In this document: one piece after another, positions 20,986-61,713 of the stretch
How positions within the stretch are numbered: position 1 is the first letter of the stretch
Layout of the letters: each line of letters opens with the position of its first letter
Assembly (NCBI GenBank): GCA_011033025.1
Contig: WFMF01000039.1
Span: forward strand, 744,001 to 808,000
Length of the DNA: 64,000 bases
Source of the DNA: Beroe forskalii
Lineage: Eukaryota > Ctenophora > Nuda > Beroida > Beroidae
Reading direction: 5' to 3'
The notes under the pieces: model-generated
Seen by the model: the letters and a program-made list of their open reading frames with translations, nothing else
Told to the model about the DNA's origin: nothing
Databases searched by the model: none
Made by a program: the position numbers and the translations under genes

Positions 20986-21041
20986 AATAGGCGGTGTGAC
21001 GTCATCAGTGCATTGGTATAAGCTCTGATAATGACGTCGTC
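20986..21041 (+). repeat. CRE palindrome copy 1
   Basis: Starts AATAGGCGG, then ACGTCATC, and ends with CTGATAATGACGTCGTC. The middle is diverged. Confidence 0.75.
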
Positions 21042-22403
21042 AGTGAGGGTGTTCTGATCATGGGGGGCCAGGGATGGTGTAATGGTTAACCAAATTAGAG
21101 GCGGCGCTCAATTGCTGCATATTGGGCTATATATTCCTGATCAATTACTGTAGACCTTGTGAAAGTTCGTGGTTTGTCGACCGGACTTTGTCGATTGAAA
21201 GTCATTCATGAGAGTGAAATGTTAGTGATGAGGCCGAACGCCGAAGTTTTTAAAATCGAGTGATTGATGCGAAATTAATGCATTCGTTTCGGTCGATTAA
21301 CAGCTATAGTTGACATGATTTATTCTTGAGTCAGATCGGCCGAAGCCATCTGATTTCGTTCGAGATTTTAGTCAGTAATCGAATAGGTCACTAGTTTATA
21401 AGACTCTTGTAAATGAGTTACCAATAACTGACATGATCTTAACTCTAAATTAATAATAAAAAACCAGAAGTTGAAATAATAATCTCCCGATTTTGTTTTA
21501 TAAGAAAGTTGCGGTAGGTTATTTTTGGGTTCGTAAGGGTATATGTGAAATTGATAGCAATTCCTCAATTGCTCAATTCCTGTTCTTTATAAACCTTCGA
21601 GGTAAATCATATTGGTAACTTATTGACTTGAATTAACTCAGAGTATTTTAAACTTGCGACATCACCCTCGTCACGGCCTCAATTTGTTCACATAATTGCT
21701 CTGAGTCTGTATTTCATTGTCTTGAAACAGTAATTGTTGTAGGTAAAATTGTTGATGGTAAAATTGTAAAAGATTTTCTTTTTTTTCTTTTTTTTCTTTC
21801 CCAGGACGAAAATAGTTTTTACAACTATTTCAATCTTGTTTTTTCGACAAAATACCCCCATGAACTTTGGTCGTGATGAATTGTCCGAATTCTCTTACCT
21901 CTGCACCTGTGATTGTCTAGGAGATACTATTTAAGAAGAGAATGAAATTATACCAACCTGACCATAGAATAGGAGGGGAAGAGAATAGACATGCAGTTGA
22001 AACAATACAATCATATTCTCCTATTCTGTATTCTGTAACCATTTAGCTATTATATTGCCAGGTGATCCACGAATCGGCATTCGGGATTAAACACGATATG
22101 ATATATCTGTTTTTAAATCATGTGATACGTACCACGTGATATAATGAAATGTTTAATCCATCGCGTGGGTTTCAGTTCAGCACACGCTTTTAGTAGGAAA
22201 TTATGAAGGTCTATCTACTTTTCCCCAAAACCTGGCACCCGCACGCTCTTCAATACCTAGTCATTATATAATGCCATTGACTATGAATCGATTATTGAAA
22301 GGTAGAAAAGAGGGAGTTCTTCCTAACTTCCAAGGCTAACTTCTCTATAACATTTGAATAGTGTTACTGTTACAATATGTATAACTAGATCCCACGCCAA
22401 AAA

Positions 22404-22472
22404 AATAGGTGGTTCAACTTCATCAACTCACTAAACTTGGCTATGATAATGACGTCATCTTAACCGCCTATT
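22404..22472 (+). repeat. CRE palindrome copy 2 (complete, 69 bp)
   Basis: Best complete copy: AATAGGTGG at the left end, CATCAACTCAC, an 11-base spacer, ATGATAATGACGTCATC, then CCGCCTATT at the right end. The outer ends are inverse to each other, which defines the element. Confidence 0.88.
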
Positions 22473-23471
22473 ATTCTCGTGCAGGCATATATTAGTACAA
22501 ATCCACCCCTCGAGTAAGTCCTTGATTTGGACTGCATATTGGGGTGTTTACCACGTATAATACCATTGACAGTAGAATCAGAGCATGCCTCCATCCTCTT
22601 TATTATAAAACCAGAAATTATATAATTCCAAGTTGTATATAACATAACCTAGGAATTATAATCGTCTTCTGATAGGACACACCTGCTGCAGCAGAGATCG
22701 CTTTGGAGCCAGTCATTTGGAACACCCGCTTCCACTCCCACCTAAAGAATTCCACCCGTGATTTCCCCTATTTCTCACATGATATTCCCCCTTATTTCAA
22801 CCATACTCCTAGGTTCACTCCTAGTTTCACTCTTCTTCACTGCTGGTTTTACTCTTCTTCTAAGTACAGACAGCCAAGTAAACAGGCACGTTCAACGTTC
22901 ACCAACCTCTGTGAAAGGTCCCCCTACTCTTCCCTCTAAACTGTATTGATTCCCTTAAACTAACAATTTACTGCTACATACAATCTGAACAATATACTAC
23001 TGAAAGATCGACCAACAAAAGACTCTCGTGATTATTATAACTTATTGCTTCGTATTGCATGCTCATGTGTCACAGAAATGTTTGAAATCCATACTTTTAT
23101 ATTGCCTTAATCTATATACCTATATAGGTAATTTGGGGGCTGATTTTGAGATTTAGGAAATTAGTTTGGGGTTTATTACGGACATGATCGGTGTAATTAC
23201 TGTCAGTAGGTCAATAGAGTTATATGGGAGCTGCTAGACTGAGTCCCCTCAATCTCTCAATTCCGTTCTCTCTCTATTCAGTGTTTCAACTGTATAAACT
23301 CGCGATCATTTATCGATACCCGAAATAGCAATAGTTGGACAGTGTTTTTAATCAAAATAATAAATTCCCAATTTAACTTGTTGTTTCATATTTATAATTA
23401 TCAGTCGCATTAACTACCTTTTTTCGTTGGGTTTTACCAAATAAGCTGAGAATTCATAATGTAATAGATAT

Positions 23472-23509
23472 CTTTTACCATGATAGATATCTATCTATCA
23501 TGGTAAAAG
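23472..23509. repeat. Perfect 18-bp palindrome
   Basis: CTTTTACCATGATAGATA faces its exact inverse with a 2-base centre (TC). It is AT-rich, with no other element structure around it. Confidence 0.85.
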
Positions 23510-23708
23510 CCAGCTTGTTCTAGCAGAATATCCAGTCCTATCAGCTCTGGCGATACCCATCTAACTACCTAACCTCGTCTATTACTGTACCTATAAGTAT
23601 TTTAGAACTAATTTTGAGCTATCAGAATATATCGCTACCTGTTCCGCTGTTAAGCAGTTACTATTTGCCACGGTGCCATCAGCAGCTATAAAACCTAGGA
23701 TTGCTCTC

Positions 23709-23825
23709 CAATTGGTTATCGCAATCAATAAAGTTCTCTGATTGGTCCTCTTGGTATTAGCAACGCTCCCAATTGGTCGTGACACAAAAAGGAGCTCTCT
23801 CATTGGTAGATTGGTATCACGTGAC
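23709..23825. promoter_or_regulatory. E-box/CCAAT cluster 2
   Basis: Four inverted CCAAT boxes (ATTGG at 23711, 23741, 23772 and 23802) are spaced about 30 bases apart and end next to CACGTGAC at 23818-23825. The even spacing suggests ancient tandem units or a promoter-type NF-Y arrangement. Confidence 0.4.
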
Positions 23826-25182
23826 AATTGATTGCAGAGTAAATTTGTTACTTAGGTCTGCTATTAATGAGTGAAACTTTAAAGTAATTGTGACATTAAT
23901 AACGATGTTACCTGAAATGCAGAATTAACGATTTTACCTTTATTAAAGTCGTTATATTTAGTCGAAAGGGGAAATTACAATCTTACCAGTGTTGTCTTAT
24001 AAAAAATCGATAGATACTATCTCGCATAATTTCTACACCCCCGCTACACCCCCGTTTGATCCGACGGTTTGGGACCCGATATTTTGCTTCAGGCTCCTGA
24101 TTGTAACACTGCCATTAAGGCGGAATTTCGCTACACTTTCGATAGAACTTATATCGTTAAATTTCACCTCTTTATCGAGCCTTCCGTCAATTGAGCGATC
24201 TGGATGGTCCAATGGTTCCCGGTTATTTTACCTTGGTCTTAAGTCTGCCACTTTCTTTAAAAGCGATGACCAGACATCCCAGGTATATAATACTACGTAT
24301 TACGTTGCTTTCAGAACATGCCTGGAGTGCTTTCCTAGCAAATTCTAGAAAATATCGCAGTGGGGACATAGTGGTATGGTCTGCCGGTTCATGACCTGAC
24401 TTTCAACTGGCGGTGGTCCTGGTGGCAAGTTGGCAACTCTCTAACTCTGCCATGCACTAATAACAGTTCATGAGCAGACACCCCAATTACGTTATATATT
24501 ACTTTCCACCTACCACTGTGTCCAGCTGATCAGCTGCAGCTCTGAAACCCACCCAATATAACCAAGCAATCTGTCTGATACAGGTATGTGGTTAAAAAGT
24601 AGCGTGGGTAAAATGCTCCTGTACTGTAACAGTCAGTAAATGGTGGTTAACTCTATATATTATAGCTGAGAACTGATGGTTCTCTCAATTTATATTAGAT
24701 ATAACTTTGCGGAGTATATTTTAATTGATCTGCCCAATATAATCTTGTTGGAAATTTCGATTGCTGTCTATAGTTTGACTAGGATTTCTGCTGCTAGAGA
24801 CTAGAAGCATTTTAAACATTCAAGGAATTCAAGGGATTCAAGGAATAATATATTGAACTTTCCACATCTTCTACAGATATCAGGAAGGTAAAATTCCTTA
24901 CTTGCTCATGGAAAAGAGATTCTTGGATTCTGTGCTTCACTGCGTTGCTTATTTAACTATTGGTACAAGACGTATTGTTTTAATAGGTGGGAAGCTTCCA
25001 ATAGCACGTGCCAAAATCGTGTTCAGCTGATCATCAATTCGATCATGAAAATCATCAAAAACACCTCACTTAATTGCACATTTATGAAGACTCCCTGTTC
25101 CACGTTAGGGGTCTTTTTGATGGAGGGCAGTCTCAAGTTGTACAGCAGAGCACTGTCATTATAGAGAAATTTGGAGCTGATG

Positions 25183-25220
25183 CTACCAACTCACCACTCT
25201 CGGCCATGATAATGACGTTA
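25183..25220 (+). repeat. CRE palindrome copy 3
   Basis: CTACCAACTCAC, an 11-base spacer, then ATGATAATGACGTTA. The CRE is mutated at one base; the ends are not evident. A weak minus-oriented copy lies nearby at about 25424-25465. Confidence 0.65.
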
Positions 25221-26541
25221 CTGGACCCTAACCAATTAGTGTGCTCGCTTATATTACTGTTCGCTTATTAAATTGATAGCTGAAAGTTAGCTCATATTTT
25301 GTACCCCTTACAGCACATTATTGACAGTTCATTAACTCTAAAACTGCCCTCAAAACCTTCCCTTTATAATATATTGACTAGCGGCAGAACCCTTCTACCA
25401 GTTCGGAAATAAGCGGCTGCGGCTGACGTAATTATCATAGATCAACATGACCAACTGCTGAGGTAGTTCAGGCACAAATGTTTCTCAGTGTGCGATGTCT
25501 CTAGTGTTTCATTAGTGCTCCTTGATTGAATAATAAGTGAGGGTTTCTTCTTCTGGTTCCATTTTTGATGGTTCTCTCTAGGCTACCAATTCCTTTTTAA
25601 CTTGTTGCAGTTTGCACCACTTTTCTGATTTTCAGCATTTTAGCAAACATAATCTTGATTGGGGAGTTTGAACAATTATCGTTAAATTTTTAGCTTCTGC
25701 ATGTACTACTTAAATTAACTATTGAGCCTTATTTTCGTAACAACGTGTTGCTGTTCACTTGATATCCACAAGACCTGACTTTTTTATTGAGGGGGTGGTT
25801 TCTATCTTGTCGTCCGTGATATAAGCCAATCAGTGATACATTAACCATGACTGTAATAACAGGCACCAGACTTAACACAACACTGCTAAACAGCTGGGTT
25901 ATTATACAGAATGTGAAAACTAATACCCAATCAGTAATTAGAACAGAACTGAGAACGTTGATGGTGATTGGTGTTGGAATATTGGATTGGTATGAACTGA
26001 TATAGATAAACTATCAACGCGGTGTAATAACAACTTTCAGTATTAATTCTTATCAGTCATTGGTGGTTGGTCGCAGAATCAGGCTTGAACAGCACTGAGT
26101 TGATTAGCTCTATTATCATTCTGTTAGTTTGTAGTTTTGCTTACGCTGTAGTTTTGCTTATGCCCGTTATTAACAGTTGACATTGGAGTTTTCACGATAC
26201 CGGTAGTTACTATTTACCAGCAGGTACCAAAGACTCCACTGCCGTCCCAAGTAATCCAATTATTGCTATCTGATATTATATCAGAAAACATTGAAGGGGT
26301 TTGATATCAGATAGTTTTTAAAGTAATTGGCTGGCAATCCCGAGATGAAGCATTATGAGCAGCACTGACATGCCCATTGCCCTGTATGGGGTGCCTAAGA
26401 TATCTGTTGTCGCTAGTAATTTACCTTGACCAGCACATTATTGACTGATTCAGATATCCCCGCGTATATATTATACATTAACACGAGTCCTCCAACCATG
26501 AGCCATTTATCAGACCCCCGTGCAAAACATAGGCCTTCCCT

Positions 26542-26583
26542 CGTCATCAACACACCACGTTAAGCTCTGATAATGACGTCATC
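26542..26583 (+). repeat. CRE palindrome copy 4
   Basis: CGTCATCAACACACC, an 11-base-class spacer, CTGATAATGACGTCATC. A left end like ATAGGC lies at about 26529. Confidence 0.8.
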
Positions 26584-26642
26584 GTTCCTGCCAATTAATA
26601 GGACCATTTATAGGACCCCCCTAGAGTGATGCAAGCAATCAA

Positions 26643-26769
26643 CCGACTCATTAATCAAGTGGCCAATCAAGCCACCTCTCTAAGCCCGCTCCACCAATCA
26701 GCAGCCCGGGATTACACCACGTGACTGCCGTCCACCAATAGGAAGCCGGGATTAGGGTCACGTGACCCA
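26643..26769. promoter_or_regulatory. E-box/CCAAT cluster 3 with duplicated module
   Basis: Three CCAAT boxes (26663, 26694, 26735) and two CACGTGAC sites (26718, 26759). The module CCACCAAT..-GCC(C)GGGATTA-..CACGTGAC occurs twice in a row (26691-26725 and 26732-26766), a direct duplication of a composite site. Confidence 0.5.
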
Positions 26770-26925
26770 GGGATTGCAATCACTGCTCATTAATCACAGA
26801 TGAGTGTATGATTAAGCTGGTGTTGCGAGGCAGGGAGGATCGCGGAGAGGCTCTGACTCTTGATTGTTTGCCTGCGCACCGCATTGTTTGCTTTGGGAAT
26901 GTTTGGGAGTTTATATTGGAGGGTT

Positions 26926-26968
26926 GTGACGTCATTATCATGGATTAGAATGGTGAATTGGTGACGTT
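26926..26968 (-). repeat. CRE palindrome copy 5
   Basis: Reads GTGACGTCATTATCATGG, spacer, TGGTGAATTGGTGACG on the plus strand, hence reverse orientation. The CRE is intact. Confidence 0.82.
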
Positions 26969-27728
26969 TGAGCGCGTACTTCATTGCTCAGCACATACCC
27001 CAACCTCAGGGGAGTTATTATAGCCAACCTTTCGTTGCAGCTTTTAGCATATTTGTATATTTCTGGAATTTTGTCCTCGTGATGCTATTTAATTTCTTCC
27101 AAATGTGAAGCCACATGGCCTGTTGACTTTTTAATTAATTAGTTCAAATTTTGATTCTCATTAAATTTGACCTTTTTGTGCGTTTAAATTTCACGGATAG
27201 TTCTAACAATCTCGAAATATAAAACTTGATATGACACATGCTAACCTGGATAGTCCGATAATTGGGTGAAAATACGAGGGGTAATTGTATGATAACTGTT
27301 TAATTGGCGGGTAAGAGGATAAGCGATCAATTAGTGACCAAATTGCAAATCATTAAACATCTTCATGCCCAACTCCTCTCACGTCTTGTAAGCTCCGTAA
27401 CTTTACCTTTTTCAAGAAAAACACTGCATATCATCATACTTGTAAAGTTCTTGCCTACGACCAGCGTTTAGGAAGCGTTTTGGTCGGGTAATTGACACAT
27501 TTAGACACGTATTGGTTGACTAATTGACACATTTGAACTCGTATATTGATTGACTAATTGGCACGTTTAAAGTATTTATTAATTGTTCCGTGCCAGCTAT
27601 ATCAGATATTGATAATCCGATGATTCGCTCAGACCTCGGATCTGTTGAACCAGAATCCTGTCAATCCTGTAGTTATTCTACTAACAACCATTAATATAAC
27701 CACTAATCGGTAAATATACGCAGTTTAT

Positions 27729-27783
27729 CTCACTGTTGTACCATGTTTAGCCATGATAATGACGTCATTATCAACCGTCTATT
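27729..27783 (+). repeat. CRE palindrome copy 6
   Basis: The right half is intact (CCATGATAATGACGTCATT, then CCGTCTATT). The left half is decayed. Confidence 0.7.
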
Positions 27784-27938
27784 ACTCATTCGAAGTCTAT
27801 ATAATCACTTATCTATTTATATAAATGCCAAAGTTAACAGCCGTTTCACTTTGTGGTAATCAAATAATTGTGCTAAATTAGAGCTATTATCTCAGATCAG
27901 TTTGTGTCGCTCGTAAACATAACTGGACGGTCTCATTC

Positions 27939-27979
27939 GTCATCAACTCACTGTTATAAGCCATGATAATGACGTCATT
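27939..27979 (+). repeat. CRE palindrome copy 7
   Basis: CGTCATCAACTCAC, 11-base spacer, ATGATAATGACGTCATT. Only about 155 bases separate it from copy 6. Confidence 0.85.
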
Positions 27980-29029
27980 CTCGACCATCTTTCATTGGTG
28001 TGCGACGTTTCGTTGCCCAGCCCTTATTTCCAAGCTGATATAGCTTTACACTCCTAATAAGTCCCTCTATACTCTACCTCCCGCTAATAGTATTGACGCT
28101 TGCAAGAGAGTGGTTTGAAGCAGTATAGAATGATGCGCCTATTTCAATGATTTAAAATCGTGCCGTTTGGTGGGTTGCACGGGATCTAGATTTGATGCCC
28201 ATTTTTCTTTTTCGGTTTACATCTGTACATCTATGATAAGCTATAAATTGTAAAACTTATTTTTCGATGAAATAAGAAATATTGTTTAGTAATTCCCATT
28301 TTTCATTCCAATTTATGTTTAAATGAGTCACTTCTTAAAATGTAAAATCTTATCTATCAATGCTATCAAATTTGCCTCGTGTGCGCTTGATATATCGGTG
28401 ATTTTGATAATTATCAAATTATTATCCTTACGTTTAATGTTTTAAAGTTTAATGTGGCGGTATTACCATAATTAAAATATTTCCTGTGATTATTAACAGG
28501 CTAATAAATCGATATAATTAATAATTATATCGTCAGTTCGAAGGATTTACTCGGCAATTCGTTAGTTTCGTAGCGTAGAATGATATGTTCTTTGATGTTC
28601 CTCTTTGATTGATCTCCGATAGTTCCGAAAGTCCGAATACCGAAATTGCCAACTTTCACGTCACGAGAATATCAAATTATTGACCAATGTTTTGACCCCT
28701 AAATTTAAAGTCATGATAGATCTATCCGAGCCGTAGTTTGTAAATTGTTGCTGTATAATTTGAGGTTGTGAGAATGTCTCCAAATCGTGCGGGCATAACA
28801 AAGCTTCGTTTAGGCTGTGAGCAACGTATCATGGTTTATTTGCATGAAGAAATCGTCCTCTTTTCTTATTTTTGTGGGTAGTTGACGTCCTTGAACTCAC
28901 GATAAATGCAGAAATAATTGGTAGAAGATCTAAATTTTTTGACATAACTTACAGCTGCTAAAAATTCAAATCAGGGAGGATTTAAACCCCCTGATTTAAG
29001 ACTGATTGTGACGCTATCATCTCATCTTG

Positions 29030-29156
29030 AAACAGTGAGTTGATGACGTATTATAACCTTATCTTCTGAGTTGATAACGTATTATACCCTTCTTTTCTGA
29101 GTTGATGACGTATTATAACCTTATCTTCTGAGTTGATGACGTATTATACCCCCTCT
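29030..29156 (+). repeat. Four tandem 31-bp units with the CRE-family half motif
   Basis: Units read GAGTTGATGACGTATTATA followed by a pyrimidine-rich part (CCTTATCTTCT). GAGTTGATGACGT is the same 13 bases as the left half of the CRE palindrome family on the opposite strand, so the array may have grown from half of one such element. Confidence 0.75.
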
Positions 29157-29371
29157 CTCCTGCAAGACGTATAAATTGGAGTCCCTCTGTCGGGACTTGA
29201 TAGACGCCTTATTACCTCTCTTTGTCTCCCGTTACGCTTGAAAAACCCAGAATTCTCTCCTGCAATTGCGCGAGTATCTAGTTTTATATTTAAAGACATT
29301 CTTTTGTTCTGCTGAACCAACAGAGCTAGAGGATGGTGATTAACAGAATATACTTGAACAGGAAACAGGCA

Positions 29372-29442
29372 AACAGGGCGGTATGGTTTCATTAACCCGC
29401 CATTTTAAACCATGATAATGATTCTACTTCAAGCAGGCTATT
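29372..29442 (+). repeat. CRE palindrome copy 8
   Basis: Both ends are visible (AACAGGGCGG and CAGGCTATT). The middle has CATTTTAAACCATGATAATGA; the CRE itself is mutated. Confidence 0.65.
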
Positions 29443-29689
29443 TTTTGCACGTGCTCATTAAGAAGATGTACTTAGCGGCACTGCAATTGCAGGCTATTTT
29501 CATAATGCCCCATTTATCCAATTACCCTAATTACTCAGATTTTCCCTAATTACTCGCTCAGGAGGGGGTTTAATCTTCAGAACTGTTTGAATTAGAAGCA
29601 ACCAACTGTGTCGATTTACATTAAAACGTTCACTGTTATTTAGTTCGGAGTAGTAGTTTATTAAGACGATTATGTTTCTAACTTTCAGT

Positions 29690-29985
29690 GTTCAGATTTC
29701 ATTGTTCATACTTCATATAAGCATGTTCAGTGCTCATACGTTCAGTGCTCATGAGTTTGGAGCAGAAGTTTATTCAGGAGATTATGTTTCTAACTTTCAG
29801 TGTTCATAAGTTCAGATTTCATTGTTCATGCTTCATAAGCAAGTTCAGTGCTCATTTAAAGTTCAGTGCTCATGAGTTTGGAGTAGAAGTTTATTCAGGA
29901 GATTATGTTTCTAATTTTCTGTTCGGTGTTCATAATCCTAGTGTTCATAAGCCCAGTGTTCATAAGTTCAGTTCTCATAAGTTCA
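29690..29985 (+). repeat. Tandem repeats of GTTCA-rich units
   Basis: A unit of about 120 bases (GTTCAGTGCTCATGAGTTTG, then GAAGTTTATTCAGGAGATTA) occurs about twice. It is surrounded by shorter GTTCATAAG(T/C)(T/C)CAG repeats. The open frame across it reflects repeat periodicity, not a gene. Confidence 0.65.
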
Positions 29986-30025
29986 CATCAGCAACAAATT
30001 GCACTTGGAGTTACGACACATGACT

Positions 30026-30084
30026 AAACTGCGACTTATTAAGCGACAATTTGACTCAAATTGTCGCTTAATAAGTCGCGGTTT
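30026..30084. repeat. 29-bp palindrome with 1-base loop
   Basis: GCGACTTATTAAGCGACAAT with TTGA is answered after a single C by its exact inverse. Five further bases each side pair with one mismatch. Confidence 0.9.
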
Positions 30085-30564
30085 GAAGAACTGAAGTTTT
30101 ATAGAACTGGGCGCACTGGATTCTTCTACACTGCGCTAAGATCCTCCTAAAGATATAACAGCTCGGCGGTGAATACTGAAATAAGAAAGTTTCCTCCCTG
30201 CAAATTACTAAATTATGGCTCATGATATTTAAGTTTGTACGGTGCCCCCTGCGATATACTGTTAATTACACTTTGCCGAATCCTGTATAATATCACATCT
30301 ACTGCGTTAATAAAATGTCTTTATATTTGAAAAGTAGGCAGGTTGGAGCGGTGTCAATTCACCTGTTTAACCCTTGACGGTGATGTCAATTTGACCCGCC
30401 AATCACTCGAATATGTGCCGGACATTAATAACAACGGCCGTAGTGACATTAGTTAATTTCCAGTAAATCATATTGTAATAATACGTTAATGGATGAGCAA
30501 TTAGCTACACTATGTAATATCAATCTATCACCCCTCATTTGCCCGGATCAAAGGAGTCCTGCCC

Positions 30565-30640
30565 GTTCATTGGTTGACGATCCCGGAATACTGGCCGCTC
30601 ATTGGTCAATGGACATGGGATGTTCGGTTCTAATTGGTCG
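30565..30640. promoter_or_regulatory. Inverted CCAAT cluster 4
   Basis: Three ATTGG boxes at about 30569, 30601 and 30633, spaced about 32 bases, with intervening CCCGG and GGCC words. It resembles clusters 2 and 3 but lacks an E-box. Confidence 0.35.
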
Positions 30641-30711
30641 GTGAGATTAGAGCCTTTGTCAGCCTTTTATAACTCATTGTAGGCCTCCTCTTGGAGCTGT
30701 TTAAACAGAGG

Positions 30712-30747
30712 GAAATTGACGGATTTTAAATAAAATCCATCAATTTC
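30712..30747. repeat. 17-bp hairpin
   Basis: GAAATTGACGGATTTTA and its inverse (one mismatch) surround AA. Minor structure; no function inferred. Confidence 0.7.
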
Positions 30748-31267
30748 ACTCTCCTCTCGGAGGGTGGTATTATACAGATTTATTTAACTTGAGAGTGGGA
30801 TTCGTTCAATATAAATGCACGAGCTTGCGAGTGCAATTACGATGGTAATTTCAACACCAAAGCGTGCATTTACGTGCGCAGTAAATATATGATTTATTAT
30901 TTAGCTCATGATTCAGGATAGTTGACAGTTTTTGATTATCCCTATGACATGAAATTAATCAGAGAATAAGAGACAAATTATCGTAATTTTAGCGACAATC
31001 AGCTCGTATGTTCTGCAAGGTCTGCTCATATATAATCGTTACATATATTCCAATCGTGTCGCTATATATTTCATTTAGCAACTGCAATATATAACCGAGG
31101 AGAGAGGTTACGAATGCTCTCGAGACTAATTTATTATTTAGAAATCATTTACATAACAATCTAAATGGAAGATGATGAGCTGCGCGCGCCGTCGTACCGC
31201 GGCACTGGGTGATACATCTCGTAGAATGTAATTGTTTCTAATTGCTGACTATATGTTCTGAACGAAA

Positions 31268-31323
31268 AATAGGTGGGTGAAGGAGGTTAAAGTACCGTTT
31301 TGAGCTATGATAATGACTTCATC
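31268..31323 (+). repeat. CRE palindrome copy 9
   Basis: Left end AATAGGTGGGT; right core GCTATGATAATGACTTCATC with one base changed in the CRE. Confidence 0.6.
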
Positions 31324-47585: not shown

Positions 47586-49114
47586 TTGTCAATCGTAAAT
47601 GTTTGATTATCAATGACGTTCAATGAAGTATTGATAATCGGGAAAATAGAATAATATTTACAAAATAGTTCATAAAATCTCAATGTCAGTGTAAGCTTTC
47701 TTACAGGAACCATTTTCGTGTCAACGTTTTTTCACAAAAGATCGTATAATGTGATCATTTATTAAACCATGAAATTTGAGAGTATTAGGAAACTTTTAAA
47801 CTAGGTGATGATAAATACCACGAATAGTTTTATATCTATTTTTGAGGAATGAGAAATTTCTGTGTTAATTAACAACTTCTAAAATTTCAAAGCATTATGA
47901 TTCAGAATAAGACATATTTTCTGAAGTCCTCTAAGACCACACAAAATTTCTTACACTTATATCAAGAATATCGATATAGTCATGGCTAATTGAGAATCTA
48001 TTAGAATGAAGTTGATGAATTCAATCAAAGAGCCTCTACATTTCGATGTTGAGAAATTAATCACAGCTCTTGGTGAGACTGTGATGCTCCTTTATTTCTC
48101 CCTTTCACGATAAGAATAGAGAAGATGAATGCTTTCACATGAATGGTATATTGTGCTCTTCCAAAGGGTGACATAATCGAGCATATTTACTTCTTCCTTT
48201 GTTAAAATTCCCCCATTTTTGCAGATTTTTTCGGGGAAAATCAATCAGTTGGTGATCTTTTTTTGTATGGTCGCGTATTAAAAACCAAAATGAGGCAGTT
48301 ATTGAACTTAAATAAATGGCATTGAGGACGCTGCATGCAGGCATGCTTTTGAGAACTCACTAAATGGCGTTATATTTTGTCACCCGAGCCTTCTACTTGA
48401 GCTTTAGAGTTACAAATTGAATCCATCATCAACCAAAGATCAAAAATGTAACATACCGAAATAATAAGCTGTTCGAATTTAAATATTCTCGAGAAGTTCG
48501 CGCAGCCATTCTTTGGCCCGTTTGATATAATCAAGAGAAGCAAATTTTCATCAACGATTTTGAAGAAATAAAGATTTTTTGATTAGACGGGAGTCAAAGT
48601 TCAAAGTTGGTCATCATATTGTGTGAAAATGTTGTATTGGTCGAAATAACATTGCGTCTTATTGAAGATGTTTTAGGCTTGGCTTGGATACAATTTCCGA
48701 CCGTTAAATAACAATCTATAACATCTGCGACAAAAGTTTTATCTCTTCTTTTTATCACTACCTAATTGTTTTTCTGATGGAACGAGTGCCATATTCCCCA
48801 AATCTCACGAAAGAGAACAATATTGTCCACTATGGACAATATCATCAATATATACGTGTCCACCACCACCAACATCAGCTCATTTAGCTGGGGAGTTACT
48901 AAATGTCATCTTCCCTCTGATTCCGAGAAACCCACACGTCCTTTTCACTCGCAGCATTTTCATTTCAGCAAAATACCAAATCCCTTGATCACGTGACCGC
49001 TGGCTGGAAATTTTAATTGCTTTCTTAATGAAAATCTCCGTACAATTGTTGTTATTGCCTTTTACTTTGATTGCATTGCCATTGTGATAAGAAATGGGAA
49101 TGTCTCGGGCGGAA

Positions 49115-49170
49115 AACAGGCGGCGTGAGGTCCACAATGCGCCATTTTAAGTTATGATAATGACGTCATC
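49115..49170 (+). repeat. CRE palindrome copy 16
   Basis: Left end AACAGGCGG, middle CGCCATTTTAAGTT, right core ATGATAATGACGTCATC. Confidence 0.78.
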
Positions 49171-49971
49171 ATCCAACGTGCACGTGTTTCTCAGCGCGAC
49201 CTATCGTCTGATTGTTAAAAATATGGGATGGTAAATCAGGATAGTAGATGAGTGACAGTCGGCAATTGTTTGCCTGAGTCTCTCAATAGTTACCCTGGTG
49301 GGGCATAACATACAAATAAATAATATATTTTCAAATAGCAAAAAGTGTTTTTTTGATGATACTATAACGTATATATCGCAACCGATTTTATTTTCCCGGA
49401 GCTATTCGTCATTGGGGAAATTGCAAAACATTTCTGGGGAAATTTTTACAGTTTACTGTCGAAAAAACTCACATACTCTACTTACAAACATCCAATAAAT
49501 TTGATAAATCAATATATTCAATGCACTCGTTTAATTAAGCTAAACCTGTGTCCTGTACCCCTGTAAAAGTACACTGGTCAGCATTCCAATCAACACAATC
49601 AAACACTCCAGTGTAAATCCATGTAGATGTATTGATATTTTACTATTTTTACAGGGAATGAGTATAGATTTTATGATGGAATTCTGAATCATGGGGCCTT
49701 TTCTTGGTCATGTCACAAGACTTCGAGATGTTACATCATGTTTCATTTTTTCAACACATTCGAGCAAAAATTGAGAATGATGCTTATAAATTCGTGGTCC
49801 CCGCGACTGCCTCTTATTTCTTTGCATTGGTTTTTCTACCCTACCTCATTTTTGTTTAGATCGTGACCCTTTACGCTAATTCAGAAATTGGTTTAAGAGT
49901 AAGAAATGAACTCCGGTTTGACATTGTATTATCACACCAAATAGATTGTGCAAGTTCATATTCTCAAAACT

Positions 49972-50050
49972 AATGTCAGATGAATCTGACATCAATTCTG
50001 ATGTCAGATATTAATCTGACATCAATATTCTGATGTCAGATCTGACATCA
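49972..50050. repeat. Alternating palindromic decamers
   Basis: TGATGTCAGA and its inverse TCTGACATCA alternate six to seven times in about 78 bases, separated by AT-rich links. The string can form several different hairpins. Confidence 0.85.
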
Positions 50051-50195
50051 CCACTACCATTGCGATACACCTAGTACTCTAAGCGTGGTGGAAGTTAGGG
50101 TGAATAGTTAGGGAGTTAGTAGACCAAGGATCCCTACCTCCAACCCTGTTATCTACAAGTTTAAATAGAACTGTTTAGGGTATACGTGGTTTAGA

Positions 50196-50237
50196 GTGAC
50201 GTCATTATCATGGTTTAGAATGGTGAGTTGATGATGT
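50196..50237 (-). repeat. CRE palindrome copy 17
   Basis: GTGACGTCATTATCATGG, spacer, TGGTGAGTTGATGATG. Very close to consensus. Confidence 0.85.
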
Positions 50238-51006
50238 GGTTAAGTCTTATTATCCAGGCAGATAGTTAGTCATGTAAATTGAGGGATAGAACGCTACTAA
50301 CTAGCAGGGTTGTTTTAATATCAGTAGCAATTTCAGGGGTAATTTTATTCAAATTACTGACGAAGGAGTTAGAGTTAATAGGTTAATAAGTGGGAAAATT
50401 TAAACCCAGCCTGCATGCTATATGTGTTCTAAGTCTGTGATTCTAAACCTGTTCAGCAAATTATATATGCTTTTCGAAACCAAAACCACTTTCGAAAAAA
50501 TCACAATTTCTGTTTGAATGATAATAAAATGTTTTACGATTTGAGGCAATTAGCATGGAAATAATATCGCAGCTTTAAATCAGAATCAGGCCTGTGTTGT
50601 ATAGTGAACTATTGGAGTTTGGACCAATTCTAAACCAAAAACACCATGACAAATCAGTCATTTTGTTGTATCTAGGTTTGTCAAATTATGAAAATGTTCC
50701 ATGCCGCAAAAAGAAGATTTCCCTCCGCAGAGTTGTGGAAACTTATGGCTATTTCTTTGAAACTACATTTTACCCAAACCCACATTTACCAAATATATAA
50801 ACCATATCCCCTCAATCATCCGATATCTTCGGAATTTCCTAGACAGTGTGAAGCCCACGTGAAGTCAATTTATCATCACACGATCCTCGAGGTCTGAACT
50901 CAATTTAAACTATCATCGTGTCAATATACGATGATCTTCAGTCTGATATAAAAACTAGATCTATATAAAACCAAACCCGCAATCGCTTAGCGAAGTGGTT
51001 GGGATA

Positions 51007-51063
51007 GTGACGTCATTATCATGGTTTGAAATGTTGAACTGATGACGTTTCCTACCGCCTATT
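51007..51063 (-). repeat. CRE palindrome copy 18
   Basis: GTGACGTCATTATCATGG, spacer, TGAACTGATGACG, then CCGCCTATT. Confidence 0.85.
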
Positions 51064-51208
51064 CCTCGTTACAGGGGATCCAGATAATAATCCAAAACAC
51101 ACACACTCACCTATCTTTATATCTATATAGTGTGTCTATTTCCCTGAGATTGTACGGCTTTACTGTGACTCTACAGAGATCTCAGTAGGACAGCAGATTA
51201 CCCTTTGA

Positions 51209-51262
51209 ACGTCACTAACACACCATGTTAATCCATGATAATGACGTCACTGACTTCCGCCT
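51209..51262 (+). repeat. CRE palindrome copy 19
   Basis: ACGTCACTAACACACCA, spacer, ATGATAATGACGTCAC, then CCGCCTT. Opposite orientation to copy 18, about 145 bases away. Confidence 0.82.
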
Positions 51263-52217
51263 TCACTTTCCTGTCGCTATAGGATAATAGTAGAGAATCC
51301 AACTCTACCTGCTATCTGCGATACGGATTCAATACTTTCACAAAGCCATCGGAATCTGATGAGAGGGGATCGCGATCTAGACACTGATCCAGACACAGTG
51401 ATCCAGAGGAGGAGATTTGGATGTTTCTTTAAGGGAAGATTATAGGTGTTCCAGCGTCATATTAATTATTGTTTTTATGAATGGCTCACTGAGTACGTAA
51501 GTAGGTAGTAATGCTCAAACTTCATACCAAAATTTCTTGAAATTACTAAAATATTCAGTAAATTTTCTTTTGTTGATTTAAAAGTAAATGTTCAATATTT
51601 TGGTCATTTCACATGTTTCATTTCCACGATCCCGATCTAGACAGTCCTCCGGTAAGAGAACTGCTGGAATCTTCAGTTTTGATTATCATTAAAACACTTA
51701 GCACTCCAGACTTGCCATTTAACGGCTTAACGGTTCAAAAATGATGTTGGCAGACAATCTACATCTATCCAAAAAGATCATTTCATGGAACTTACAATTG
51801 ATAAATGATAAGTACCAAATCTCTGATTAACTTGAGACGGTATGCTTGATTGAGTCGCATCGTCCGACGTCGTTGAAATTAACTGCACTGGCTCGAATCT
51901 AAATGCTCAAGAAAGCTTCAACCGTGATTCAAATATGTCTTCATAACCTTGATATTCTTTTTTAAATCTCGAATAGCTCAGTAAATAGGTAGGTACGGCT
52001 TCAGATGATACCTACCAAAATTTCTTGAAATTACTGAATTGTTCAAAAATCTCAAAAAGTATGTCCTCAATAATTTTGGTCAATTCCACAAGTTTTAAAA
52101 CTTTTCAGACCACTTCTCTCTCGTGTCTGTACTTAGTAATGATAATATTATTACTTCTCCTTATCATTTTATGCTTATTGCCGGACTGTCTTACGACATG
52201 CGAGGTTCACACTAAAA

Positions 52218-52285
52218 AATAGGCGTTTTAACGTCATCAATTCACCATTTTAAACCCTCATAATGACGTCATCTTTAAACCGCTA
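52218..52285 (+). repeat. CRE palindrome copy 20 (complete)
   Basis: AATAGGCG, ACGTCATCAATTCACCA, spacer, CTCATAATGACGTCATC, then AACCGCTA. Total about 68 bp. Confidence 0.85.
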
Positions 52286-52407
52286 ACTTTTTAGTCTCGT
52301 GTTTCCAAGCGGTTTTGCTTGACCTCTCCCCGTGTCTTATCTGTCACATGGTGTAAGTTCGGGTTCCCAATTTAATTACCCTAATCAGCCCGATAACTAG
52401 CGCCTTT

Positions 52408-52485
52408 TCCACCAATCACAGCCCGGTATCCTAGTCACGTGACCGGTATTTTGTCACGTGACCGGTATTTTGTCACGTGACCTTT
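52408..52485. promoter_or_regulatory. E-box/CCAAT cluster 8 with tandem E-boxes
   Basis: CCACCAATCACAGCCCGG is followed by three GTCACGTGAC sites at 52434, 52453 and 52472. They lie in a perfect 19-base tandem repeat (GTCACGTGACCGGTATTTT). The CCAAT-GCCCGG-GTCACGTGAC order is the same as in cluster 3. Confidence 0.5.
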
Positions 52486-52645
52486 ACCCAAATCGAGTTG
52501 TTACCTAAGTTTTATTATTATATCTGTGCTAAATATGCCAAGTTGTCAATCAATCAGTCCTCTCCACCGGTTACCCACCAGTGCATTTGCTGGAATATAT
52601 ATTCCAATAATAAATTGCCGAGATAATCGCTGCGCGACACGAGAT

Positions 52646-52755
52646 GTCACGTGACGCGCATATCTTCCGTGATCTGAAAAGAGATTACCCAATCAGGGAG
52701 GTTCTAACTGATTCAGCCAATCAGCGATAGGCTGGATCAGGCGTTATCCAATCAC
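52646..52755. promoter_or_regulatory. E-box/CCAAT cluster 9
   Basis: GTCACGTGACGCGC followed by three CCAATCA boxes at about 52689, 52717 and 52748, and a GC-alternating word (GAGCGCGCGCG) just downstream. Confidence 0.45.
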
Positions 52756-53417
52756 GCACGAGCGCGCGCGTGTCAATTACCAGCAGCAGCTGCTGCTCGG
52801 ACTGCGCAATCACAGTTCTCATTTTTAATAAATTTGATGTAATTTATGTGATAAATCCGTAATTTATGAAGTGATAAAGTGACGGACGACGGTAATAAAA
52901 TTACCAAGTACCACCGTTTGACAGAGTGATAATTTAAGTGTTTTGAAACTTGAGCAATCCAAGTACAGAAGTACGCAGCTTTCTAGCAACAGTATTCCTT
53001 GATGAATTAAAGTAGCTGGAAACATGAATATTGAATTTTGTTAAAGCTTGAAACATGATGAATTTTATCGCGGGTGTAACATTATATATCAACCCAATTT
53101 CCAGTTAAGTCCCGCAGAAAATTAATAATGATAATTTGAATATACCTACAGCCTTTTTTGTACCCGAATATAGCTGCCTCGCGTGATTTATAAAACTGAT
53201 TTCCTAAAATTATATATTACCTGCAAAAATTCACCACCTTTTTCATTTTTACGGGCCTTGAAAAATGACTTATACTCCGAAAAGACAACGTGGGATCTGT
53301 AAAAATAATTAACTAAAGACCAATTTTCTGTGTAATAATATAAAGTTGTTGAATGATAATAATCGTTCGATATCATCTCTCAGAGCTCTTAAAACTCTCG
53401 GATAATTGGAGGGGGTG

Positions 53418-53457
53418 ATGATGTCATTATCAGGGCTGAAAGTGGTGCGTTTATGAC
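53418..53457 (-). repeat. CRE palindrome copy 21
   Basis: GATGATGTCATTATCAGG, spacer, GTGGTGCGTTTATGAC; CRE changed at one base. Confidence 0.65.
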
Positions 53458-53551
53458 ACTAAAAACAGCGTGAATTCTGATCCCGTTTTTCATTGTATGT
53501 TGCATGACTCATTATGCAGGATAGCAAAGATAATATTCTCTCGAGTTGAAC

Positions 53552-53604
53552 TTGGCGGAATCACGTCATCAACTCACCACGTTAACCTATGATAATGACG
53601 TCAT
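53552..53604 (+). repeat. CRE palindrome copy 22
   Basis: TTGGCGG, CGTCATCAACTCACCA, spacer, ATGATAATGACGTCAT. Opposite to copy 21, about 95 bases away. Confidence 0.87.
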
Positions 53605-54062
53605 GATTCTAACTCCGTGCCCTCGGGTGCAGATGATTCCCCACCGGAGCGTGTTATAATTCCTTGTATATGATTTACTAAAGACAAGATAGAACAGCTC
53701 CTTGGAGCAGTAGATCTCTCAGGGAAATAGGCTGCTGAAATGAAAATAGGCTGCTGAAATGACGCGATTATCACGGTTAAACACAGATAAATTATGAGGG
53801 TGTGAGAGATTATTGGGCGGTGTGAGAACAACTATCAGGAGATATATTTTCCGTCCTCCGTAGTTAATAAGGGCCCTGGATCTTTATATAAAGTACATAT
53901 CTCTCTCTCGTAGATGATCTCAGATAATTATTCAGTGATTGCAGTTGATTATCATCCGTGCTAATCAGTGCAGGGAGGAGCAGGAGAGTCAATAGATGGA
54001 TTATATATAATACTCGCTTGCGTTTATATAACCATGGGTGCGTATATGTGAAGTGCGAGATA

Positions 54063-54103
54063 TGGCGTCATTATCATAGCTTAACGTAGTGAATTGTTGG
54101 CGA
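54063..54103 (-). repeat. CRE palindrome copy 23
   Basis: TGGCGTCATTATCATAG, spacer, AGTGAATTGTTGGCG; CRE changed at one base. Confidence 0.68.
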
Positions 54104-54490
54104 TTTTCCGGCTATAAATTCGGTGTTAAGCCGGGAGAATCGCCGCGCTGCGATTTCTCGCGTGTGTTTATCTCTCAGCGAACGTCTGTATATTATTATT
54201 ACACAGCAGGAGAAGAAGATTTAGAACCTTAATTACTCGGCTCATCACCACCAAATGACTTGACACGAATATATAAATATATAGAGAGGGAGAGCTTGGA
54301 AATACCGGCAGCTAATCAACAGCCTGGATTCCGACTTTTGGACCAATGGGAGGGAAGTATTTCTCATCACGTGATCTAATTTGAAATCCTATGTAATTAG
54401 AGGGAGTGTTGGGATAAGATGGCCGTGTTAATAAGGGATTAATAAGAGCATGTCGCCCATAATGATCAACGGTGAGAAAGACCAACGTAT

Positions 54491-54695
54491 CACGTGCGGA
54501 GTTTCCCGGTCGATGATTGGTCAGCGCACTCTTTTCCGCGCGTCCATTGGTTCCCAACCCGTGATGATGATACAACATCGATTGTCTGATTTTGGACATT
54601 TTTGAGCAGGTCAAACTATAGCAAGTAATGTGTATTGGTGTTAATCCACCAATCAAGCGCGAGCTGGTGGGAGGCTCGACCAATGGCAAGCGGTA
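54491..54695. promoter_or_regulatory. E-box/CCAAT cluster 10
   Basis: CACGTG at 54491, inverted CCAAT boxes at about 54516 and 54546, and direct CCAAT boxes at about 54650 and 54679. A TATATATATATGG run follows at about 54745. Confidence 0.4.
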
Positions 54696-54739
54696 TCCGA
54701 GCGCTGGAGTCAATTAGTGTGATTATACGAGGCTAAGGA

Positions 54740-55095
54740 CCTATAGTATATATATATGGCAACGGAGGGAGAGTGATACCAGTATAGTAGATCTGGAATG
54801 TGAGATAATGGCTTAACGTCTAAATCACTCATCCTGTCAGAAGACGCACACAGTCAGTCAAACAAACACATTCCAGAGACACAAACAATCGGACAAAGAT
54901 ATGTTCCCGTGAGACAGAGGACTATATTCATTCAGACAAACTTTCAGACACTCACTCAGACAGGCAAATCGGTTCAGACAGGACCACAAGACTCACAACG
55001 AACGAACACTTGGCAACAAACTTTCAGACAAACATTCAGACAAACCCTCAGACACACGCAGCAAGTTCCTGGCCAAAGCACTGGATCAGGGTAAA
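54740..55095 (+). promoter_or_regulatory. TATA-like run and CAGACA-rich stretch, possible 5' UTR
   Basis: A TATATATATATGG run (about 54745) is followed by about 250 bases rich in imperfect TTCAGACAAAC / CTCAGACAC words with few T-tracts. The layout resembles a promoter and first exon, and CAGG|GTAAAT near 55090 could be a donor. The open frame (many Gln and Thr) follows the repeat and is not convincing protein. An alternative start of the second gene is possible. Confidence 0.25.
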
Positions 55096-55319
55096 TTGGT
55101 AAAATCAACAGCTTTGGTTAAGTCTGGGAGATATAATGCTGTACACACGCCCTCTTACATGACACAAAACAAGGGTAAGATACCAATCCAGCTGCTACCC
55201 ACGGGTTGGTGTATTATTTCGGGAAATTACTCTAATTTCGCGAAAAATTGCTGTAATTTTTGGAAAACCTCACGCCGTGATGGTATGTAGATTGTGCCAT
55301 TGACTCGAGGTCAATTATA

Positions 55320-55660
55320 CAGTTACAGTGTGAGTTGAGTTGCTGTAATCAGCTCAAAAATTCCTGCGTTTTTCCTAAAACAAGTATGTGGGCAGCCATT
55401 CCGTGGCTTCATAACTATGCAAATTTTTGACCAAATATTATCAGAATGTTTTGCAATTTTTGAATAACTACAATACTTTCCATTTATCACCATCCACTGG
55501 GGATATATTATATATTGGTCGGCATTCATTTTTTGTCCAGAATATGTCACGGTCTTGATTTTCTTAACGCAAGACTGCCCAGAGCATTGGGAGATGCTTC
55601 TAAACTTGCAGAAAACACTGAATTTCTTCAAAGGAAGAACTTGAAGAAAAGTCAGATTTT
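55320..55660 (-). mobile_element. Tc1/mariner-like transposase fossil
   Basis: The minus strand encodes SGQKMNADQYI, resembling the G-x-MNAxxYI stretch of Tc1/mariner transposases. About 36 residues later comes NGCPHT, resembling the (Q)DxAPxHT catalytic segment, and next to it KTQEFL appears in another frame. A PMLWAV word upstream also recalls the VMVWGA motif. At least two frame changes separate these words, so this is a decayed internal fragment. No terminal repeats were found. Confidence 0.45.
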
Positions 55661-56147
55661 ATTTTAGACCGATCCAAATTCATCAATCATCATCTGCTAA
55701 AAAATCTCATCAAACCATGGATTAAACCGCACTCAACGGTCTATAATTCAATTCCCTTAGAATATGCCACATACCTAACCATAACCATAAGCTCTGTAAT
55801 TAGCTGTAATTGGAGTAGACGTCATGCGCTGGAATGAAAATCATACTTTGCTGTGTGGTTTCTAACATGTCCAATATATGCTCAACCGCAACCATATTCT
55901 CTCTGTCTCTCATATTGAACCATATAACAAAGTCAAAACATAATATACTGACAGGGCCTCACCATAACAATAATAATAATCAAGATTAGGTACCCCAGGG
56001 TTCTGTATTATTGTGTATGACAAACACATACTGATAGCAGCTGAGCTCAGTGTGTTTGGGTGGTGATAGGTCAATTAAATATCCCATTTTAAGGATTGAC
56101 AGCCCAGTCGATCCCTCCCATACTCGCTCTAAACGCAGAGAATTTGG

Positions 56148-56178
56148 TGCGTTGTTTGACCTATAATAGTGACGTCAC
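56148..56178 (+). repeat. CRE palindrome copy 24 (partial)
   Basis: GACCTATAATAGTGACGTCAC preserves the right half; the left half is decayed. Confidence 0.5.
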
Positions 56179-56831
56179 ATATTAGATCGACAGCCTTGGT
56201 TGATGGAGTCTTACCCCTCCTATATTGTTTTGTGGTTGTAATTAAAGTGCTGTCAGCTCTGGAATGACGCACTAGCGCACGCTCAAATTACGCACTCAAA
56301 TTAATACGCACTCATGTGCGTGCTCAAATGGAGAAAAACGCATACGCGCTCAAAGCAGTCATTCATTAGAGCAAATTCTGTAACAAACGATTGAATTGCT
56401 CACAACCACATGGATGGACGCACAAAATTTTCGCATACTTGCTCAGTTACTCGGACGCATCACATTTTGTTAATCATACCTATTCCGGAGGGGAAAGCAT
56501 GTTCATTGTCCACTAAAAACACAAAAAAGATGAAAAGCACATTAGCGCGTTGTACGCAAAAATCCAGTTATGAACATGGAATTTTTTCACTTTTTATTAA
56601 AAATTTCACAAAGCTTATTGCATCACCATGAATCATCTCAGTAGATTTCTTTTAAGATTAATAAATCCCAAGCATCGGCAATAAATTAATTCATTATTAC
56701 CTCTTGCATCAGCTTAATAATCATTTCCGATTTCCATTTATTATTACCCACACGTGACTTTGTGACACTTTACATTTTCCCAAACTTCCCTCTCATTTTG
56801 AGTGTTGTGCACGGAAATAATACGCAGTTTT

Positions 56832-56870
56832 ACGTCATCAACTCACCCTTGAGGAGCAAGATTTTGACGC
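56832..56870 (+). repeat. CRE palindrome copy 25 (partial)
   Basis: ACGTCATCAACTCACC is intact; the CRE half is reduced to TTTTGACGCATTC. Confidence 0.6.
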
Positions 56871-57893
56871 ATTCTCAGATGGGCATATTATTCGGGCACA
56901 GCCAGCATTATCTGCCCGGCCCTCAGTGAACTAGACTTCCTTAGATTCTATATGATTATTAGCTGTGTGCGCGATTAATAAGACGTCAAACCCAAGGATA
57001 TTTATGAGCCTTTATATTAATCTATAACCCGGTAGTATGTGAAATCTATCATGATTGACAGCCCAGTATATGTTCCTAAAATCACAGTTATTAATTATTG
57101 AACACCGGCTGATTCTCCTTCCATCAGTTTGATAGTTTGTTATTCTGTCATCCAAAATGATCTTATGTGTGGGTCTGGTAACGATAAATACCTTAAATTT
57201 AGAATTGATCTGAATTCTAGCTGGTATTTTATAAACGTTGTGAAAAACAAATTTCAAGAAAAACTTATCTATTTTTTACATCCGTTAAAATTACCTCAAG
57301 TTTGATTTCATCCAAGCCCCCATAAATTCATAAATATGTCCGACCAATTTATGCCCGTTAACTGATAAGGTATTATGGATGCATCTTCTGTGCCATCTTC
57401 GTATGTGCTACTACTTAATAATAAACTTGGATATATATCGAAACTATATCATCAATTATATATCAGAAAGCAAGAACCATCAAATAATAATAATCCAATA
57501 CCTGATATAGTTGAACTATCAAATACGACGATAATCACATGAATTTCGAGTCTTTCAACTCATTTTAGTTGTTATTTCACATTAAACCTCTCAAACTCAG
57601 TTATTTCAAAATAAATCAACCTCTTGAGATATCAAAATAATATAATCCAATACCTGATACAATGCTGCGTGAGCATACATTTCATGATATATAGCTATAT
57701 AGTTCCCTCAGTACCAAGTACTACTCGATGTCTTATTCATTAGACCATGCTTCAATCTGGACAGCCTGACGTTCTCCATTATTGAACCCCGGGATAATAT
57801 TATATATATAGTTCCCTGACAGAAAACCTCCGTTCCGCGGCTTTTGACATAGTTATTATGAGCTGAATTGATGCACGGTTTAGGTGATGTGAT

Positions 57894-57935
57894 ATGACGT
57901 CATTATTATAGAATGACGTGGGGTGTTGATGGTGT
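57894..57935 (-). repeat. CRE palindrome copy 26
   Basis: ATGACGTCATTATTATAG, spacer, GTGGGGTGTTGATGGTGTC. Confidence 0.75.
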
Positions 57936-61705: not shown

Positions 61706-61713
61706 TCCAAAAT

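Follow-up and report, generated by a model that had tools for sequence, protein, structure and literature searches.

About thirty copies of one long element with a cAMP-response-type site (CRE), in both orientations, lie in 37 kb of animal-like and apparently non-coding DNA inside the 64-kb window (the whole stretch of DNA that was analysed) (Table 1).

A family of CRE-bearing elements confined to 37 kb

With an iterated 53-column profile, 32 copies in the 64-kb window scored above 11, compared with a maximum of 2.3 in ten dinucleotide shuffles. A weak copy at 45082 (-) was excluded from later counts, and the 31 copies kept (17 on the plus strand, 14 on the minus strand) agree with the preliminary description, which had claimed at least 25 related copies in both orientations. 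All 31 are confined to 20.7-57.9 kb of the window (P ~1e-6 relative to uniform scatter in the window). The family had been thought to start at 20986, yet an earlier copy lies at 20708, and the density, first put at about one per 1.5 kb, was measured as a mean of one per 1.24 kb with a median gap of 0.9 kb between neighbouring copies. Gaps of 185-250 bp accounted for 7 of 30 against 1.3 expected (p 2e-4, for a statistic chosen post hoc). With up to 3 mismatches allowed, the left block matched 25 times in the window versus 0.46 expected; the right block matched 28 times versus 0.24 expected. Some of these matches are not family members, a few falling at 62-64 kb in a repeat that is unrelated. 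Copy quality is graded rather than bimodal and shades off continuously into copies that can hardly be recognised. More decayed relatives of the element were found at 1305 (-), 28862 (-), 30372 (+) and 56163 (+), the first of which is at least one relative outside the array.

One reading first offered, a regulatory code "of this gene", is unsupported: no recognisable gene was found inside 20.7-57.9 kb when ORFs of at least 62 aa were read by eye, and in a Pfam search (E up to 0.1) of ten chosen ORFs the seven that start inside this interval had no match at the curated cut-off. The same search gave a PAP2 match below the cut-off, outside the array. An RFX_DNA_binding match that stayed below threshold (E 0.0038, with 18.2 bits against a cut-off of 27) at 41122-41448 on the plus strand, directly after one copy, is probably due to chance. 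The element pattern had 0 matches in viral contigs; a looser pattern matched 1 viral and 2 bacterial contigs, which is attributed to chance since their profile scores were at most 3.6 compared with 26.8-63.0 for copies in the window. In the literature, strings of element sequence gave single-string matches only, in work on wheat SINEs and on mosquito kdr, and the arm and minisatellite strings gave no match.

Table 1. Positions in the window of the array, its copies and an associated tandem array.
Position	Strand	Feature	Basis
20660..57955	.	Whole array, 31 copies, both orientations	profile
20690..20740	-	Weakest accepted copy, low end, anchor 20708	profile
20985..21042	+	Left arm good, left half altered	
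22400..22472	+	Copy bearing both arms	
25170..25229	+	Copy, convergent pair with 25438 - (25408..25474)	
25408..25474	-	Copy, convergent partner of 25170..25229 +	
26524..26591	+	Copy, convergent pair with 26941 - (26919..26982)	
26919..26982	-	Copy, partner of 26567 + (26524..26591)	
27717..27783	+	Right half and right arm exact, left half decayed, one-base gap in left arm	
27928..27992	+	Copy	
28997..29066	-	Left half good, right half decayed; adjoins 31-base left-half array	
29036..29148	-	Tandem array, 3.6 copies of 31-base unit containing left half	
29369..29442	+	Both arms, CRE decayed	
31294..31324	+	Right half remaining, left half lost	
36953..37017	+	Decayed copy	
37595..37662	-	Decayed copy	
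41062..41122	+	Copy	
44536..44607	-	Decayed copy	
44743..44810	+	Copy	
44971..45037	-	Copy, perfect 11-base left arm	
45961..46028	+	Copy	
46230..46289	-	Left arm perfect, right half decayed	
49111..49181	+	Copy	
50181..50254	-	Highest position-weight score of copies	
50994..51064	-	Copy, two-base insertion between core and left arm	
51201..51263	+	Copy	
52214..52285	+	Best profile-HMM copy (nhmmer 58.3 bits), both arms visible: left arm AAAATAGGCG, left half, 9-base spacer TTTTAAACC, right half with CRE, right arm	
53405..53464	-	Copy	
53549..53610	+	Left block exact, right block one mismatch	
53750..53786	-	Decayed copy, right arm tandemly doubled	
54050..54117	-	Copy	
56814..56847	+	Left half remaining, right half decayed	
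57883..57950	-	Array's last copy	

Architecture, spacing and flanks of the element

The unit reads AACGTCATCAACTCACCA-YTTTAARCC-ATGATAATGACGTCAT, with weaker inverted arms AAAATAGGCGG and CCGCCTATT. Between the left half, ACGTCATCAACTCACCA, and the right half, which holds the CRE (ATGATAATGACGTCAT), lie 9 bases; the spacer from ...CACCA to ATGATAAT measures 9 bases rather than the 11 first given. The exact TGACGTCA palindrome of the CRE occurs in 16 of the 31 copies, which corrects the complete CREB/ATF site ascribed to the element. At up to 2 of 11 mismatches and a shift of up to 2, the left arm is present in 9/31 copies, as is the right arm at up to 2 of 9 mismatches; both arms (up to 4 of 13 mismatches each) were seen 47-49 bases apart in five copies. 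Inverted arms of the kind stated for the best copies are present, but they are weaker than the core, and the term "palindrome" fits the arms and the CRE but not the remainder of the element. Complementarity of the arms within a copy was no better than between copies (p=0.20, arms alone).

Fixed spacing had been reported for nearly all copies, and this was borne out: of 21 pairs of left and right halves whose offset differed from the expected one by no more than 40 bases, 20 showed exactly the expected value. In a set of 25 copies selected on their right half only, the left half was recognisable in 20, all with zero shift. The spacers of these 20 copies hold 63 differences from the spacer consensus, for which approximately 9-16 indels would be expected at ratios of 0.15-0.25, as calibrated on duplicated stretches within the window; none was seen (P(0) 8e-5 to 1e-7). 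At the lowest single ratio seen, 0.05, three spacer indels would be expected (P=0.04). Gaps were found only in the arms (copies 51064 and 27717) or in the dropped weak copy (45121).

Conservation was determined by cross-picking, in which a block is scored in copies chosen by another block; this replaced a first pass that overstated the core over the arms because the copies had been picked by the core. After correction for chance and in fixed register, the right half scored 0.73, the left half 0.64 and the left arm 0.42; on the same scale the spacer scored 0.35-0.49 and the right arm 0.13-0.16, the last becoming 0.21-0.34 once shifts of 2 were allowed. With shifts allowed, the left half and left arm scored 0.57 and 0.47. 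No excess of shared derived changes was found among the copies, which form a star-like set.

Beyond about -45/+30 the ungapped identity of flanks between copies is at random level, consistent with the unrelated surroundings noted in the preliminary description. Within ~200 bp of the copies, the flanks are richer in GC and have fewer A/T runs than the locus; at 45-150 bp the GC content is 0.396 compared with 0.372 (p=0.002), and A/T runs number 12.3 per kb compared with 21.0, a value that none of 1000 shifts matched or undercut. Around copies, up to 300 bp away, strings of the CCAAT, E-box, TATA-like, MYB-like and GATA-like types had no clearly higher density than at greater distance (CCAAT/ATTGG, 3.08 versus 2.88 per kb). 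Target-site duplications at the element ends, a check proposed at the outset, gave no signal, since 10 of 25 permuted pairings did at least as well as the best boundary pair, a test that is not decisive for old copies, which may have lost their duplications.

Regulatory sites, transposons or promoters

Of the two explanations first offered, the distributed regulatory code is better supported than the transposon family because of the exact spacing without indels, the restriction to one locus, the block-uneven conservation, the compositional halo and the fact that no target duplications were detected. Judged from sequence, the copies are probably composite protein-binding sites of fixed geometry, with a CREB/ATF-type CRE on one side, each centring a regulatory module of ~400 bp. 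The array would then comprise some 30 cis-acting composite elements, each with two half-sites at one exact distance and with inverted arms optional. The CRE would be occupied by a bZIP dimer of CREB/ATF type and the left half by one or more partners, or by one large multi-domain DNA-binding protein, all binding as a unit, and each bound element would nucleate its module, promoter or enhancer, in the non-coding 37-kb domain. Since copies lie on both strands, their function would be exerted at the DNA level or belong to independent units; the identity of the protein(s), the regulatory output and the target gene(s) of the array are matters that we infer. Several observations count against the regulatory reading: the exact TGACGTCA is limited to those 16 copies, the conservation gap between left half and left arm became smaller after cross-picking, the CCAAT, E-box and similar strings are not clearly enriched around copies, no TATA box is fixed relative to them, and the flank halo could reflect an insertion preference.

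The main rival, which we consider rather unlikely, is that a non-autonomous, MITE-like transposon of ~70-100 bp, bounded by short inverted repeats, multiplied in a burst long ago and that its copies, concentrated here by chance or local hopping, are in decay. The arms AAAATAGGCGG...CCGCCTATT, recognisable at matching distance in the five copies noted above, the unrelated flanks and the relative at 1305 are consistent with such an origin, as are the star-like set, which is also the outcome of a single transposition burst, and the continuum among copies, which is what neutral decay would give; these last two likewise weigh against the regulatory reading. However, recognisable copies are free of indels in spacer and core, decay is uneven by block with the arms worse than the half-sites, the arms show no co-variation within copies, and the copies are restricted to one locus within the window, with altered flank composition and without a target-duplication signal (subject to the caveat on old copies).

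A further proposal, which we regard as quite doubtful, is a non-coding domain made up of dozens of promoter units, independent and in inverted pairs, all with the same long, bipartite element based on a CRE. It would be either a small-RNA (piRNA-like) gene cluster driven by the CRE or a chromatin landing array specific to this locus, with an origin separate from the nematode and vertebrate systems known. Less probable again is that the array is a group of short non-coding RNA genes, independent of one another and each driven by one element, much as nematode piRNA genes are by their upstream motif. Such a group would fit a domain that appears to be non-coding and in which every unit has a single fixed motif of upstream type, on either strand, followed by unrelated sequence. 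On the sense strand downstream of the element, as far as about +300, AAAA runs are depleted (p=0.012). The CTCACC of the left half may resemble the start of vertebrate snRNA PSEs. On the other side, neither a conserved position downstream of the element nor a TATA box at a fixed place relative to it was found, and a 3′-box-like string showed no excess (11/31 versus 14.8 expected), results that bear on signals at a set distance and not on starts at variable distances; there was no excess of hairpins and no Rfam or tRNA match.

Other candidates were rejected. A coding origin was dismissed because the open frame RHQLTILNHDNDVI through the consensus has an in-frame stop in 7/31 copies and a stop within 30 codons in 31/31, with third codon positions conserved like the others (0.823 versus 0.820 and 0.806). 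An RNA hairpin was discounted, the arms lacking co-variation within copies and the element being less structured than its GC predicts. For a TATA-positioned promoter, a first count of loosely defined strings suggested enrichment between +45 and +75, but a weight matrix did not confirm it (2 and 3 of 31 copies versus 1.3 expected in two bins). Sense-biased splice-donor-like strings, which arose in part because the elements carry GGTGAGT on the other strand, numbered 11 near and 10 far after masking.

If the elements are as they seem, a rigid two-part protein-binding site is repeated about 30 times in a bounded 37-kb domain. Such a site would far exceed the usual enhancer grammar in both length and strictness, and the array could serve as a natural system for the spacing rules of CRE-containing enhanceosomes or for the origin of clustered promoters. 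Should the elements prove to be transposons, their ends would have decayed faster than an internal binding site.

Comparison with known systems

Nematode piRNA loci are described in one account as monocistronic, with a consensus motif upstream, and clustered in two large regions, and the same account reports two piRNA motifs that nearly always occur together in early-branching Plectus species (PMC6436959). The type I piRNA promoters (Ruby / SNAPc-type motif) resemble the array in repeating one upstream motif many times per locus. Their motif is a GTTTC consensus, whereas the array element is CRE-based, of ~43 bases and with inverted arms, and lacks a fixed downstream start signal.

The MHC class II S-X-X2-Y module consists of several boxes at fixed spacing, one of them a CRE (X2), bound as one enhanceosome. 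The array element similarly has a CRE plus a second box at fixed spacing, and by eye the RCCATGATAAT beside its CRE loosely resembles an RFX half-site. It differs in having no positioned Y box (by eye, CCAAT lies at +22 to +30 in only a few copies), in a left half that does not seem to match the S box, and in its non-vertebrate-looking context.

MITEs are short and non-coding, with inverted ends, many copies and unrelated flanks; the array elements share these features, the inverted ends only in weak form. In the array, however, the half-sites decay more slowly than the ends, spacing is exact without indels, target duplications were not detected at the copies, and the family is locus-bound. 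The pairing-centre motif arrays of C. elegans are homotypic binding-site clusters, with many copies of a motif in both orientations within a bounded non-coding region. The present array likewise holds many copies of one motif, in both orientations, in such a region, but its motif is far longer, bipartite and CRE-bearing.

Extent and anatomy of the family

The repeated blocks named in the preliminary description do constitute a family. With up to three mismatches, its left and right blocks matched the window 25 and 28 times, against 0.46 and 0.24 expected, and an iterated 53-column profile scored 32 copies above 11, compared with a maximum of 2.3 in ten shuffles. Exclusion of the weak copy at 45082 (-) from later counts left 31 copies (17 + and 14 -) ranging from 20708 to 57909; for 31 uniformly scattered points, confinement to so long an interval in 64 kb has P ~1e-6. 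When the window was compared with itself, nearly all reported pairs of at least 40 bases with both members at 20-58 kb (tandem arrays excluded) were element copies, the remainder being a handful.

The spacer, initially given as 11 bases, counts nine. Little information was present at -30 to -27 and +16 to +18, and no clear signal past about -45 and +30 (25 copies, ungapped); flank pairwise identity between copies was 0.27 and 0.26 (21 copies).

Blocks of the element (coordinate 0, first base of ATGATAAT) and decayed relatives outside the accepted set (window positions)
Feature	Position	Strand	Sequence or content
Left arm	about -41 to -31		
Left half	-26 to -10		ACGTCATCAACTCACCA
Spacer	-9 to -1		YTTTAARCC
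Right half	0 to 15		CRE (CREB/ATF site) at 7 to 14
Right arm	about +21 to +29		
Decayed relative	1305	-	
Decayed relative	15664	+	
Decayed relative	28862	-	
Decayed relative	30372	+	
Decayed relative	56163	+	

Spacing and conservation of the half-sites

Twenty of 21 half pairs located near the expected offset sit exactly on it. Since the profile was ungapped, the spacing test was redone on 25 copies selected on their right half only; a left half counted as recognisable if it reached 10/17 or more at a shift anywhere between -6 and +6. Recognisable left halves were found in 20, every one at shift zero, and one of the other five has its best left-half score (6/17) at a non-zero shift; the fixed spacing claimed in the preliminary description held. 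Against the consensus built from the spacers of these 20 copies, 63 differences were counted. Eight duplicated stretches in the window contain 67 gap openings for 272 mismatches. Taken singly, their ratios range from 0.05 to 0.81; the second longest, which diverges more than the other long stretches, has 0.15. For the 20 spacers, 9 to 16 indels would be expected at ratios of 0.15 to 0.25, and three at 0.05 (P=0.04). A maximum-sensitivity HMM search that allowed gaps placed them in three of the 36 top hits: in the left arm or next to it in two cases, and in the dropped weak copy in the third.

A first pass on copies picked by core gave identity to consensus of ~0.82 in the core and near 0.5 in the arms. 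Cross-picking, in which copies chosen by one block are scored in the others (chance-corrected, fixed register), gave 0.64 for the left half, 0.42 for the left arm, 0.49 for the spacer and 0.16 for the right arm in right-half-picked copies (n=25). Left-half-picked copies (n=24, among them the dropped copy and four hits within or adjoining a tandem array of 31-base units) gave 0.73 for the right half, 0.42, 0.35 and 0.13 for left arm, spacer and right arm. With shifts of up to 2 permitted, the left half scored 0.57 and the left arm 0.47. By these cross-picked scores the half-sites persist longer than arms and spacer, by a smaller margin than first thought.

Surroundings of the copies

At 45-150 bp from copies GC was 0.396 versus 0.372 (p=0.002) and A/T runs of four numbered 12.3 versus 21.0 per kb (0/1000 circular shifts); past about 200 bp composition was no different, and CpG density was unchanged at every distance. 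Gaps of 185-250 bp separate 7 of 30 neighbours (1.3 expected; post hoc). Orientation is opposite in 22 of 30 neighbours (permutation p 0.01) and in 10 of 12 less than 400 bp apart (p 0.02); these 10 comprise equal numbers of convergent and divergent pairs (five each). Neither a positioned TATA at copies nor an excess of hairpins was found; Rfam and tRNA searches gave no match inside the array, nor was a gene recognisable there (ORFs read by eye, Pfam on only ten of them). Directly after one copy, a short ORF (41122-41448) matches an RFX DNA-binding domain below threshold (E 0.0038). The stretches 26584-26920 and 52280-52490, which lie between or beside copies, contain several CCAAT boxes as well as E-boxes (CACGTG), among them a tandem GTCACGTGACCGGTATTTT.

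Other repeats occur in the window. Adjoining a full copy, the left half recurs in 3.6 tandem units of 31 bases (29036-29148), which looks like the multiplication of a single half-site. A large minisatellite of 35/43-base units (GGACCCAGACCAT...) within the array (32187-34680) contains zero accepted copies. Several raw pattern hits came from a tandem ~1.2 kb unit (61685-64000, ~86% alike), which has GATGACGTCATC palindromes of its own as well as a string resembling the left half. Minisatellite blocks of 13-base GTGGACTCCACC-type units, apparently oppositely oriented, occupy 12481-12972 and 16326-16825. A 90% duplicated block (2273-4058 and 8183-9954) carries a 21-base minisatellite (CGTAGTTCTACG core) and a PAP2-like exon; the exon, whose Pfam match is weak, is found at both 2273 and 8183. 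On visual inspection, a frame-broken fragment (58738-59509) resembles a Penelope-type GIY-YIG element; the single frame submitted to Pfam had no match. Judged by exon and fragment, the window is eukaryotic and animal-like.

Origin of the array

Shared derived changes showed no excess over margin-preserving randomisations (p=0.25, 21 copies; p=0.72, 31 copies, core), copy-to-copy identity was independent of distance, and arm complementarity within copies was not above that between copies. Target duplications, raised in the preliminary description, were not detected, 10 of 25 permuted pairings equalling or beating the best boundary pair. The main rival reading, an old burst of MITEs (short non-autonomous transposons), would account for the inverted arms, the star-like set of copies and the continuum of decay. 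However, the spacing is exact although the spacer varies freely, the arms decay faster than the half-sites, and the copies are restricted to the locus, with a local compositional halo. On these grounds we favour predicted composite binding sites under constraint over a decaying transposon family. We infer that the copies serve regulatory modules acting on one or more target genes, and, given the CRE, a CREB/ATF-type protein would be the natural guess for a candidate partner at that site.
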